From Eubacteriales bacterium (GTDB lineage: Bacteria; Bacillota; Clostridia; Acetivibrionales; JANLFN01): 64,000 nucleotides of DNA. The position numbers and the translations under genes were made by a program. Positions 31,774 through 60,419 of this stretch are shown piece by piece; the first letter of the stretch is position 1, and every line of letters starts with the position of its first letter. The notes under the pieces were generated by a model. That model saw only the letters and a list, made by a program, of their open reading frames with translations, did not search any database and had not been told where the DNA came from. The DNA lies in assembly GCA_024655885.1 (NCBI GenBank), contig JANLFN010000004.1, positions 62,001-126,000 on the forward strand, read 5' to 3'.

Positions 31774-31819
31774 ACAGGAATAAAAATATCATCTGTACAG
31801 ATGATATTTTTATTCCTGT
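31774..31819. terminator. 46-bp perfect palindrome, probable terminator of the flavo-diiron gene
   Basis: Two 23-base arms with no spacer, centred on TGTACA and including AAAAATATCATC and its complement. It begins in the last base of the flavo-diiron stop codon. The T-rich 3' arm could release polymerase, but the lack of a loop and of a trailing U-run is atypical. Confidence 0.6.
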
Positions 31820-37318: not shown

Positions 37319-39394
37319 TTAAGTAACCTTCAGATTGATAATAGATTCCTGGATGCTTTTGGGTACTTCCTCATAGTGATGGAACTGCATGGTATATACT
37401 CCCCTGCCCTGGGTTCTGGAACGCAGGTCAGTAGCATACCCGAACATTTCAGCCAGAGGTACGTAGGAAGTAATCACCTGGGCTCCGGCCCTTGCCTCCA
37501 TTCCCTCAATCCTTCCTCTCCTGGAGTTTAGGTCACCCATGACGTCGCCCATGTACTCCTCGGGGACAACCACATCCACTCTCATGATGGGTTCCAGCAG
37601 TACCGGGTCCGCTTTACGGCAACCTTCCTTGAAAGCCATGGAGCCGGCAATTTTGAACGCCATCTCCGATGAGTCCACCTCATGGTATGAGCCATCCACC
37701 AGGGTCACTTTTACATCCAGCACCTGGTATCCCCCGAGAACGCCATTGTTCATGGCATCTTGAATACCGGCATCAATGGCGGGTATATATTCCTTGGGTA
37801 TCGCTCCTCCCACGATTTTATTTACAAATGTATAGCCGCTTCCCGGTTCCTGGGGCTCCAGTTCGATCCAGCAGTGGCCGTACTGGCCCCTACCGCCGGA
37901 CTGCCTCACAAATTTACCTTCCGCTTTAACCGCCTTCCGGATGGTCTCCTTATATGAAACCTGGGGTTTGCCCACGTTGGCTTCCACCTTGAATTCCCTC
38001 ATCAAACGGTCAACGATGATTTCCAGGTGCAGTTCACCCATACCTGCGATAATCGTTTGCCCTGTTTCGGAGTTCGTATAGGTTTTAAAGGTGGGATCCT
38101 CTTCCGCCAGCTTCTGTAAAGCCAGGGTCATTTTGTCCTGTCCCGCTTTGGTTTTTGGCTCTATAGCCACGTGAATGACCGGTTCGGGGAATTCCATGGA
38201 TTCCAGTATAATGGGGTTGTCTTCGTCACACAGCGTATCTCCGGTGGTGGTATCCTTCAATCCCACTGCGGCCGCGATATCCCCCGAATAAACCATGTCG
38301 ATTTCTTCTCTGTGGTTGGCATGCATTTGCAGGAGTCTTCCGATTCTTTCCCTTTTGCCTTTGGTGGAATTCAAGACATAGGAGCCGGAGCTCAATTTTC
38401 CCGAATAAACCCTGAAAAAGCAAAGCTTCCCCACATAAGGATCCGCCATGATTTTAAATGCCAGCGCGGAAAACGGACCGTCATCGCTTGCCGGCCTTTC
38501 CGCCTCTTCCTCACTGTCGGGCAATACTCCCTTTATCGCAGATATATCGAGGGGTGACGGCAAATAATCCACTACTGCATCAAGCAACTGCTGGACACCT
38601 TTGTTCCTATACGATGAACCGCACGTAACAGGCACCATCTTCACGCTGATGGTAGCCTTCCTTATACATGCACGTATCTCTTCCTCGGTGAGTTCCTCTC
38701 CTTCAAGATATTTCATCATCGTTTCCTCGTCTTGTTCAGCAACAGCTTCCAGTAAAATGTCACGATATTTTTGTACAACATCTTTCATGTCATCTGGGAT
38801 AGGACCTTCTTCTATGACTTTACCCAAGTCATCTCTGTAAAAGTATGCCTTAAGTGTTACAAGATCCACAATACCTTGGAAATTATCTTCCTTTCCTATC
38901 GGTAACTGAATAGGGATGGCGTTTGCTTTAAGCCTATCCTTCATCATTTGAATGCAGTTATAAAAATCTGCTCCCATAATATCCATTTTATTCACATATG
39001 CAAGACGGGGTACGTTATAGTTGTCGGCTTGTCTCCAAACTGTTTCGGATTGAGGCTCAACCCCCCCTTTTGCACAGAAAAGTGTTACTGAACCATCGAG
39101 TACACGAAGAGATCTTTCAACCTCGACCGTGAAGTCAACGTGCCCCGGCGTATCAATAATGTTGATCCTATTTCCTTTCCACTCGGCCGTAGTAGCAGCA
39201 GATGTAATGGTAATACCCCTCTCCTGCTCCTGCTCCATCCAGTCCATGGTGGCGGCGCCTTCGTGCACTTCACCCATCTTGTGGAGCTTTCCCGTATAAA
39301 ACAGGATACGCTCGGTGGTGGTAGTCTTTCCTGCGTCAATGTGTGCCATGATTCCTATATTTCTTGTGTTTTCTAAACTATACTGCCTGGGCAT
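37319..39394 (-). CDS. fusA: Translation elongation factor EF-G
   Basis: GTPase that drives translocation. The 691-residue protein has AHIDAGKTT at 17-25, the conserved [20 protein letters not shown] switch region, [10 protein letters not shown], and the C-terminal domains IV-V ending [10 protein letters not shown]. Length is typical for the main fusA. GGAGGGAATAAG precedes the ATG. An unusual repeat element lies between it and rpsG. Confidence 0.98.
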
Positions 39395-39439
39395 CTTATT
39401 CCCTCCTTTCGTTTACACGATAGCCCTAAATATTTTTCA

Positions 39440-39515
39440 GCTGAGATATTCGCTCTGCGAATGCCGAGCTTCTTGCTCTTCAAGGCCGAGATATTCATTT
39501 CACAAATGCTGAGAA
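39440..39515 (-). repeat. Mini-hairpin array, second copy (rpsG-fusA spacer)
   Basis: Three hairpin units at 39448, 39471 and 39493 (spacing 23 and 22), with GCTGAG or GCCGAG linkers on the plus strand. The first unit is identical to one in the ilvD-ilvB array (ATTCGCTCTGCGAAT). In the third, the minus-strand RNA still pairs through two G-U wobbles (ATTTG/TGAAT). Confidence 0.75.
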
Positions 39516-39537
39516 TCCTAATTGCCTATAAATTTTT

Positions 39538-39553
39538 TCTCAGCCCTCAGCCT
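39538..39553 (-). repeat. GGCTGAG heptamers behind the rpsG stop
   Basis: Minus strand reads AAAGGCTGAGGGCTGAG directly after the rpsG stop codon. This is the same heptamer repeated many times behind ilvD. Confidence 0.65.
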
Positions 39554-39558
39554 TTCTA

Positions 39559-40029
39559 TTACCATCTGTAATGTGCGAAAGCCTTGTTGGCTTCTGCCAT
39601 CTTGTGGGTGTCTTCCTTCTTTTTATATGCTCCGCCCAAGTTGTTTACCGCGTCGAGAATTTCACCGGCCAGCTTTTCCTTCATGGTCCTCTCTCCTCTT
39701 GTGCGGGCATAGCTAACCAGCCACCTTAAGCCCAGCGCTTGCCTTCTCTCGGGCCTAACCTCCATAGGAACCTGATAGGTCGCACCGCCCACTCTTCTTG
39801 CCTTTACCTCAAGAACCGGCATAACGTTGTTCAAAGCCTGTTCAAATACTTCCAGCGGGTCTTTTCCGGTTTTGCTTTTGATGATGTCAAAAGCACCGTA
39901 GCAAATTTTCTGGGCAATACCTTTCTTACCGTCAAGCATGATATTGTTGATCAGCTTGGTAACGGTCTTATCGTTGTATATGGGGTCGGGCAAAACATCT
40001 CTCTTTGGAACATGACCTTTTCTTGGCAC
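39559..40029 (-). CDS. rpsG: 30S ribosomal protein S7
   Basis: Primary 16S rRNA head-assembly protein. The 156-residue protein is full length with family-typical runs ([34 protein letters not shown]). It starts with GTG, 10 bases after GGAGGG. Part of the rpsL-rpsG-fusA-tuf series. Confidence 0.97.
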
Positions 40030-50147: not shown

Positions 50148-50185
50148 TCCACCTCCCTCTTTTATCAGTCTTTCCACTCAAAACC

Positions 50186-50320
50186 AGAATAAAACCCTTC
50201 ATATGCACATAGACACATGAAGGGTATTGTTTCGCAAACCGCACCACAACGTTTCACCTCGGTAGGAGGATGCATCTCATCCGTTACGCGTTCAGCACCT
50301 ACTGTCTATGGCAAATACCA
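50186..50320 (-). ncRNA. L10 leader (rplJ autoregulatory leader) with attenuator
   Basis: The minus strand carries the leader landmarks GACAGTAGGTGC and TCCTACCGAGGTGAAAC, as in known firmicute L10 leaders, then a terminator stem ACCCTTCAT/ATGAAGGGT with TTTTATTCTGGTTTT. Excess L10 or L10-L12 is expected to favour termination. Confidence 0.82.
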
Positions 50321-50339
50321 TATTCAATTTACATTTCCT

Positions 50340-51723: not shown

Positions 51724-51835
51724 AAAAAATGCGCAATAGACACAAGGAGTGCACGGTCAGCCGAGCTTTTCAGCTCTCAGCCGGATTGTCCCCGCCGCCT
51801 TTCTGCCCCAGCATGCAAAGTGCCTACGGCGCATT
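51724..51835 (-). terminator. Large structured terminator-like element between nusG and rplK
   Basis: On the minus strand, AATGCGC near the nusG stop pairs with GCGCATT about 95 bases later, extended by TAG/CTA and CAC/GTG, then TTTTTT follows. The enclosed part holds a GAGCT-GAAA-AGCTC hairpin flanked by GGCTGAG-like sequence. Since rplK lacks its own promoter, this is better seen as an attenuator than a full stop. Confidence 0.55.
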
Positions 51836-54658: not shown

Positions 54659-54856
54659 CACGCTTGCCCCGCAAAGCGAAGCAGTATGCTCCGCGAGGTT
54701 GAAGATTCGCTCTGCGAATGCTGAGCCTCTTGCTCCGCAAAGCTGAGATATTCGTTTCGCGAATGCTGAGATGTTTGTTTCACAAACGCAGAGATATTTA
54801 CTGCTTAAATGCTGAATTCCTGGCCCTGCCAGGCTGAGCCTATTTACTGCATAACC
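54659..54856 (-). repeat. Tandem mini-hairpin array, 22-23 bp period
   Basis: About nine units. The best start at 54705, 54728, 54750, 54773, 54796, 54819 and 54842. Plus-strand units are ATTCGCTCTGCGAAT, a CTTGCTCCGCAAAG form, ATTCGTTTCGCGAAT, GTTTGTTTCACAAAC, ATTTACTGCTTAAAT and CCTGGCCCTGCCAGG, each followed by a GCTGAGAT-like linker. Stems differ between units but most keep self-complementarity; linkers stay constant. Two eroded units extend to the ilvB side. Confidence 0.85.
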
Positions 54857-54861
54857 GGTTT

Positions 54862-54951
54862 CTCTCAGCCCCTCAGCGCTCAGCCCCTCATCTTCCTCAG
54901 CCTCTCAGCCTTTTTCAGCTCCTCAGCCCCTCAGCCTTCTCAGCCTTTTCA
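54862..54951 (-). repeat. GGCTGAG heptamer tract behind ilvD
   Basis: Plus strand shows eight exact CTCAGC cores and two degenerate ones within 90 bases, spaced 7-16 bases apart by pyrimidine-rich sequence. On the minus strand it starts a few bases after the ilvD stop. It lies on the 5' side of the hairpin array. Confidence 0.85.
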
Positions 54952-54955
54952 ACTC

Positions 54956-60083: not shown

Positions 60084-60419
60084 CTATTTAATCTTTTTTA
60101 GCTTTTGCTCGGTATCCGTCTTGAATTCCATCAAATCAGCCACAGCGTCAGACAAAATATCAAGTTTTTTATCCACTTGATTGAACCTGTTATTTACCTG
60201 GATTTCAAAAGACTGCAGCTTATCGCTAAGACTTAATTGCCCCATCTCCAGGTTGTGCTGGCCTTCTTCAAGATTTTGCAAACGGGATTCCATGCTTTGC
60301 TGCCCTTTTTCAAGGTTCTGCAAACGGGATTCCATGCCTTGCTGCCCTTTTTCAAGGTTTTGCTGGCCTTGCTTCAAATCTTTCAGTTCGGTAAGAATCT
60401 GCTTTAATATTTCCTCCAT
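60084..60419 (-). CDS. Coiled-coil protein with 14-residue tandem repeat
   Basis: A 111-residue, almost wholly helical protein. After an N-terminal helix (MEEILKQILTELKDLKQGQQ) come two near-identical copies of LQNLEKGQQxMESR and a third diverged copy, then a second coiled-coil stretch (VNNRFNQVDKKLDILSDAVA). GGAGGG precedes the chosen ATG; the upstream extension is rejected. Function unknown; the repeats suggest recent expansion. Confidence 0.75.
   Translation of the reverse strand: MEEILKQILTELKDLKQGQQNLEKGQQGMESRLQNLEKGQQSMESRLQNLEEGQHNLEMGQLSLSDKLQSFEIQVNNRFNQVDKKLDILSDAVADLMEFKTDTEQKLKKIK
60277..60360 (-). repeat. 42-bp tandem duplication inside the coiled-coil gene
   Basis: Two copies starting TGCAAACGGGATTCCATGC exactly 42 bases apart with few differences, encoding the 14-residue protein repeat in frame. 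Slippage here would change coil length without breaking the frame. Confidence 0.85.

Follow-up and report, generated by a model that had tools for sequence, protein, structure and literature searches.

The spacer between rpsG and fusA raises the question of what kind of element fills it: a structure that works in the operon mRNA, or an array whose form is made and kept at the level of DNA. We examined it within a window of 64,000 nucleotides, by which we mean the whole stretch of DNA analysed (Table 1). The spacer is 164 nt long. In transcript order, its 5′ part consists of the rpsG stop codon, 7 nt, the sequence GCTGAGGGCTGAG and a 25-nt A/T-rich stretch. The start-proximal arm that follows has the order CTCAGC-hairpin-CTCGGC-hairpin-CTCGGC-hairpin-CTCAGC, give or take a base at the edges, and the last 45 nt, with the Shine-Dalgarno sequence, reach the fusA start. 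The CTATCG and GGAGG of this last part are shared with a relative of a sister genus, G001 (L060), and partly with G012 (L058) and G009 (L081). The minimum-energy RNA structure predicted for the element lacks the hairpin of unit 3, as the CUC(A/G)GC copies are taken up in pairing with GGCUGAG. Folding energy is -35.5 kcal/mol on both strands, with z-scores of -2.1 on the minus and -3.7 on the plus strand; with DNA parameters the z-scores are -2.5 and -2.2, respectively. No Rfam family matched the element, and the only match in the window to reach its gathering score was an ordinary ribosomal protein L10 leader at 50180-50329. The window also holds tandem 42-nt or 21-nt direct repeats (family D2) within an open reading frame at 60247-60393, and a perfect 23-nt inverted repeat, its arms without a spacer, at 31774-31819.

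A second, longer element lies between ilvD and ilvB, genes named by NCBIfam models. The initial annotation had proposed that the three rpsG-fusA units align with units of the ilv element, the first of them identically, and that GGCTGAG copies directly follow the upstream stop in both; all of this was borne out. Positions 39448-39514 and 54705-54771 form a 67-nt ungapped block in which 58 of 67 positions match (87%), and unit 1 reads ATTCGCTCTGCGAAT at both 39448-39462 and 54705-54719. The GGCTGAG copies begin 7 nt past the rpsG stop and 11 nt past that of ilvD. Unit 3 reads ATTCATTTCACAAAT at 39493-39507 and ATTCGTTTCGCGAAT at its ilv counterpart, 54750-54764, the two differing by three G-to-A changes on the plus strand. 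Read on the minus strand, the altered pairs are of G-U type or Watson-Crick, as had been claimed, and for this one unit the observation is correct. A further spacer of the window contains a probable remnant of the family; this spacer opens with a TAATGCGC stretch, resembling the flank of a second array subtype described below, and is followed by a gene that we take to be rplK-like.

Table 1. Positions in the window of the rpsG-fusA element, its flanking genes and the related elements
Feature	Position	Strand	Description
fusA, elongation factor G	37319..39394	-	NCBIfam TIGR00484
Remaining spacer ahead of fusA	39395..39439	-	CTATCG and Shine-Dalgarno sequence GGAGG
Whole element, rpsG-fusA spacer	39440..39553	-	
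Start-proximal arm	39440..39514	-	Hairpin units separated by CTCAGC or CTCGGC copies
Hairpin unit 1	39448..39462	-	Transcript ATTCGCAGAGCGAAT; same as a unit of the ilv element
Hairpin unit 2	39469..39484	-	CTTCTTGCTCTTCAAG on the window's plus strand
Hairpin unit 3	39493..39507	-	Transcript ATTTGTGAAATGAAT; two G-U type pairs
Stop-proximal arm	39539..39551	-	Two GCTGAG copies; transcript GCTGAGGGCTGAG
rpsG, ribosomal protein S7	39559..40029	-	NCBIfam TIGR01029
Probable family remnant	51757..51782	-	GGCTGAGAGCTGAAAAGCTCGGCTGA on the minus strand; decayed, in another spacer
Second, longer family element, ilvD-ilvB	54700..54955	-	Eight GCTGAG copies, then CTCAGC copies and six hairpin units

The likeness of the two elements is not a matter of chance, because across the genome (3.44 Mb) the array pattern CTCAGCN{0,4}CTCAGC gave 95 matches (45 forward, 50 reverse) against 0 for the reversed control pattern, and the hairpin-unit pattern gave 15 against 0 for its control. 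Clustering of the pattern matches in the fetched stretches yielded 36 GCTGAG/CTCAGC array sites, a count that misses lone or strongly decayed copies. The family is thus dispersed, as the initial annotation had supposed, and its sites lie at operon junctions, among them mnmE-mnmG, purH-purD, argC-argB, hemC-cobA, cobA-hemB, hemB-hemL, leuC-leuD, ddl-murI and the spacer after cbiT, all with NCBIfam assignments. Gene directions at the sites were taken from long open frames, and 20 flanking proteins were checked by NCBIfam. Neighbouring copies (n = 95) are spaced by 7 nt in 31 cases, 8 nt in 49, 9 nt in 14 and 10 nt in one; copies with a hairpin unit between them mostly stand 21-23 nt from each other. 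By eye, the arrays showed no regular runs of three G. A second array subtype (L169, L170, L166 and L030, on contigs C62, C36 and C32) is bounded by TATAATGCGC-type palindromes that lie beyond both arms. Another repeat, GTTGnAGAAGGGCTCTGGAGAAGGGCAAGGTTAAG, some 35 nt long, occurs between the arms at L023, L021, L160, L161 and other sites, at some of which it is joined by a CTTAACCTTGAA-type partner.

The arrays have a regular layout, which we counted from copies within 30 nt of another copy. At 14 of the 15 two-armed sites, GCTGAG copies strictly precede CTCAGC copies, and the sole exception, C7:83002, has one additional terminal GCTGAG. Gene direction is uncertain at three of these 15 sites, which is immaterial, since the order reads alike on both strands. 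Ahead of the next start, 15-nt palindromic units often accompany the CTCAGC copies. Where an array is of one type and gene direction is known (n = 18), the transcript carries GCTGAG in 16 cases and CTCAGC in 2. At 22 of the 28 oriented sites with a GCTGAG array, the upstream stop codon is either at most 20 nt from the first copy or located in the array itself; at the remaining six it is 37 to 105 nt off, or no long frame ends nearby. At 6 of the 28 the stop falls inside the array, and in four of these cases the first GCTGAG provides it, as TGA. Arrays therefore sometimes end the gene, and at C7:49932 the array encodes the final residues of a sugar-epimerase-like protein. The TGA within GCTGAG can be a simple reason for the polarity, one that leaves the start-proximal arm unexplained.

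Array polarity appears to follow the genes. At most sites the genes run with the GC skew, so that transcription and replication are inseparable there. At argC-argB (C9:14126), the genes run against the local GC skew, which is weak (0.07), and the hairpin arm still lies ahead of the downstream gene; C7:5690, with less certain flanking genes, agrees with a gene-following polarity. An orientation set by the replication strand was rejected, as C9:14126, and probably C7:5690, follow the gene rather than the fork.

From the wobble pairs of unit 3 the initial annotation had concluded that RNA is the functional form. We delimited 39 hairpin units by eye from the array sites; in transcript sense, 192 of their 222 pairs are Watson-Crick, 14 G-U, 12 A-C and 4 other. 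The 25 units of standard length have 131 Watson-Crick pairs out of 150, against 98 expected and a maximum of 115 in 10,000 shuffles of the right halves, while G-U pairs (8 against 24 expected) and A-C pairs (7 against 22) both lie about threefold below the shuffled expectation. Were G-U tolerated at three times the rate of A-C, the probability of finding 14 or fewer among 26 would be 0.015, a value to be read with the shared descent of the units in mind, by which 14 against 12 does not equal 26 independent events. Loops in the transcript are mostly of the GNA type (25 of 39 units). Folding was compared for 17 two-armed elements among the 36 sites, which on both strands fold better than the average of their dinucleotide shuffles: the mean z-score is -3.1 in sense and -3.5 in antisense (Wilcoxon P 0.33). 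In 15 of the 17 the sense strand has the lower raw folding energy, a gap that the shuffles attribute to composition. With no G-U excess and both strands folding alike, the conclusion drawn from unit 3 does not extend to the family, and we rejected RNA selection read from wobble pairs as a general rule. Spacer compaction, in which folding would keep stop and start close, was also rejected, the exterior path falling below that of shuffles (P < 0.05) for only 2 of the 17 elements. The conserved palindromy is strand-symmetric, pointing to a process at the level of DNA.

Within the order, the family is restricted to this genome: CTCAGC array triples occur in 1 of 58 genomes, the window's own. A class sample of 391 genomes contains triples in eight, with 44 hits in the window's genome and 1, 1, 1, 1, 1, 1 and 6 in the others. 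Scanning a contig database for the palindromic unit with both CTCAGC flanks, with records of the genome itself possibly excluded, gave one match, in Leptolyngbya, which was taken as chance. Of 60 genomes, counting that of the window, 53 matched the rpsG-fusA query; the relatives' matches cover the rpsG end, the fusA start and the last bases before fusA, and do not extend over the arrays.

Spacers in three distant relatives, G012, G006 and G045, are short and plain at the junctions readable in each. In G012 the gaps between aligned coding ends measure 77 nt at hemC-cobA, 25 nt at cobA-hemB and 58 nt at hemB-hemL, against 147, 101 and 284 nt here; at mnmE-mnmG, G012 has a gap of 31 nt and G045 one of 13 nt, against about 180 nt, and the ilvD-ilvB gap is about 115 nt in G006 and G045 against 335-370 nt. 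To this extent the arrays look like the clean insertions that had been proposed; the description fails in G001, where the same spacers hold a different inverted array. G001 is the nearest relative compared, and the only other member of the same taxonomic family among those compared. Its spacers are long and hold inverted arrays built on other motifs, namely AATTGAG/C at rpsG-fusA, GATTATA at ilvD-ilvB, GGTAGAATAGG at mnmE-mnmG and a GTTCAGA-like motif at purH-purD. Across 40 orthologous junctions, with two arrays called by eye, G001 has an array at 4 of the 5 with a GCTGAG array here, C9:37774 being the one without, and at 7 of the 35 others (P 0.015); this comparison includes mnmE-mnmG and rplK-rplA, counted by eye in G001 at a tandem score of 14, and its base rate is raised by some G001 stretches having been picked for AATTGAG arrays. 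With a strict tandem score of at least 16, the counts are 3 of 5 and 6 of 35 (P 0.065). The sharing of array junctions between the two genomes is suggestive, in a small sample in which longer spacers may simply hold more arrays.

At the 19 G001 sites drawn by AATTGAG (rows merged by hand), the two-type sites run forward then reverse in 5 of 6 cases, and in 8 of 10 one-type sites flanked by co-directional genes the transcript has the forward motif. A generic inverted-repeat scan of spacers was set aside as too unspecific, because terminators and attenuators score too. Several further intergenic inverted arrays of GAGTTAA, GTTCGGA, GTACAGT, ATTATAG and AATAGGT types occur in G001 (L254 4232-4387, L261, L262 and L264) with, by eye, the same stop/start polarity as here, and at G001:C35 25083-25496 (L254) an inverted array separates the counterpart of the L10 leader from the ribosomal-protein gene that follows.

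On balance, we lean towards the view that this lineage-specific, dispersed family of non-coding fold-back arrays is multiplied and remodelled as DNA and tolerated behind stop codons. Its layout comprises a stop-side arm of GCTGAG copies, one every 7-9 nt directly past a stop, and a start-side arm of complementary CTCAGC copies, often with 15-nt palindromes, directly ahead of the next start. Arrays would be copied between sites, slippage would alter their copy number, and copying between inverted arms may keep the palindromes perfect on both strands. Template switching of this kind between imperfect inverted repeats, which makes the arms alike, is a mutational process described in the available parts of two reports (PMC7202029, PMC8604942). 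The arrays would survive mainly at operon junctions, where the GCTGAG orientation should be harmless behind a gene and could, by the TGA in the repeat, supply its stop codon. Once transcribed, an array would be an intercistronic hairpin, presumably lacking a specific RNA function, although a role of the arrays in the mRNA is possible.

Some observations speak against an account in terms of DNA alone. No source of mobility came to light, the arrays standing apart from the six Y1 transposase genes. Polarity follows transcription even at argC-argB, which an RNA function would fit too, and the sister genus has the same layout with other repeats in 4 of 5 spacers, so that the layout itself may be selected. 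The polarity and the shared layout would suit an RNA element of operon mRNAs, whose arms and hairpins protect the transcript, keep stop near start or tune downstream translation, as would the many sites flanked by co-directional genes in operons for biosynthesis and translation and the negative z-score of all 17 tested elements. We nonetheless think it unlikely: the G-U excess is absent in both sets of units (14 against 12; 8 against 7), the antisense strand folds as well as the sense once composition is allowed for, the bringing together of stop and start is unsupported, and the rpsG-fusA element lacks an Rfam match. A transposon-like element of MITE or REP/REPIN type, mobilized by a Y1 or other transposase and with the arrays as terminal inverted repeats, seems to us more doubtful still. 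Its attractions are the dispersed, intergenic sites with inverted arms and palindromic units, the six Y1_Tnp genes in the genome, and the outer palindromes of the second subtype. Yet the six Y1 loci, searched over about 1.5 kb on each side, hold isolated single motifs and no arrays, for which reason Y1/RAYT mobility was rejected. The hairpin units also scarcely occur alone, a loose 15-nt pattern giving 28 matches against 10 for the control with the good palindromes mostly within arrays, so that free-standing hairpin elements were not clearly seen; and, inverted arms notwithstanding, fixed ends were not seen, and length and composition vary. Least credible, to the point of being highly improbable, is a separate origin of each array by slippage of a simple motif without a common source. 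The loose unit spacing and the several unrelated motifs of G001 would agree with it, but unrelated loci share the GCTGAG motif and have hairpin units that are nearly identical, so that copying between sites is needed, and the shared 67-nt block likewise disfavours it. We raise a wider proposal tentatively, as possible rather than probable: intercistronic fold-back arrays could be a class of element defined by layout and not by sequence. Two sister genera would retain an inverted array at shared gene junctions, with one arm past the stop, often containing it, and the complementary arm ahead of the start, and the motif would have been wholly replaced between them. Either the folded layout would then be under selection, or a process would rebuild arrays at fixed sites.

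In cyanobacteria, small dispersed repeats and short tandemly repeated repetitive sequences are familiar as tiny units, hairpin-forming or heptameric, that spread within one genome. Intergenic heptamer repeats, GGGAATC in Xanthomonas and GGGGA(T/C)T in Nostoc, lie on the coding strand near stops, overlap with the stop codon included, and on the non-coding strand near starts; tandemly inverted repeats occur among them, and the accessible part of that account reports no link to transposable elements (PMC4692102). As far as that part goes, the present arrays share with them short tandem units in many intergenic places (36 sites here) and the stop/start strand polarity; they differ in lacking a strict 7-nt period (31 of 95 spacings) and in having the GCTGAG motif and palindromic hairpin units, whereas the heptamers were studied for G-quadruplex formation (PMC4692102). 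TAACTGA direct repeats of marine Beggiatoaceae, cyanobacteria and Bacteroidetes are likewise intergenic, contain stop codons within the unit, by which their limited overlap with coding ends was explained, and occur in some ribosomal-protein operons, one set being upstream of fusA; by the portion of the report available, they lie mostly just upstream of starts, are almost only direct (one indirect set) and go without mention of palindromic units (PMC4679880). REP and REPIN sequences, in the available parts of their descriptions, are also extragenic palindromes in many copies with inverted pairs forming hairpins; REPs adjoin a RAYT gene, whereas no arrays lie near the six Y1 genes here, and the present units are shorter and chained by CTCAGC (PMC3116915, PMC3733652).

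No publication on the GCTGAG array motif was found in the open-licence literature searched. The kind of element is already known, in that stop/start polarity is published, in the part of the source available, for the Xanthomonas and Nostoc heptamers; as far as our searches reach, the GCTGAG family, the palindromic units within it that covary symmetrically on the two strands, and the exchange of motifs at shared junctions are new. Heptamer-like arrays of the same polarity in proteobacteria and cyanobacteria lack an agreed function. Against this background, palindromic units that are symmetric between the strands help in telling explanations at the level of DNA from those at the level of RNA, and two clostridia-like genomes with different motifs in the same spacers offer a direct way to ask whether it is layout or sequence that persists.
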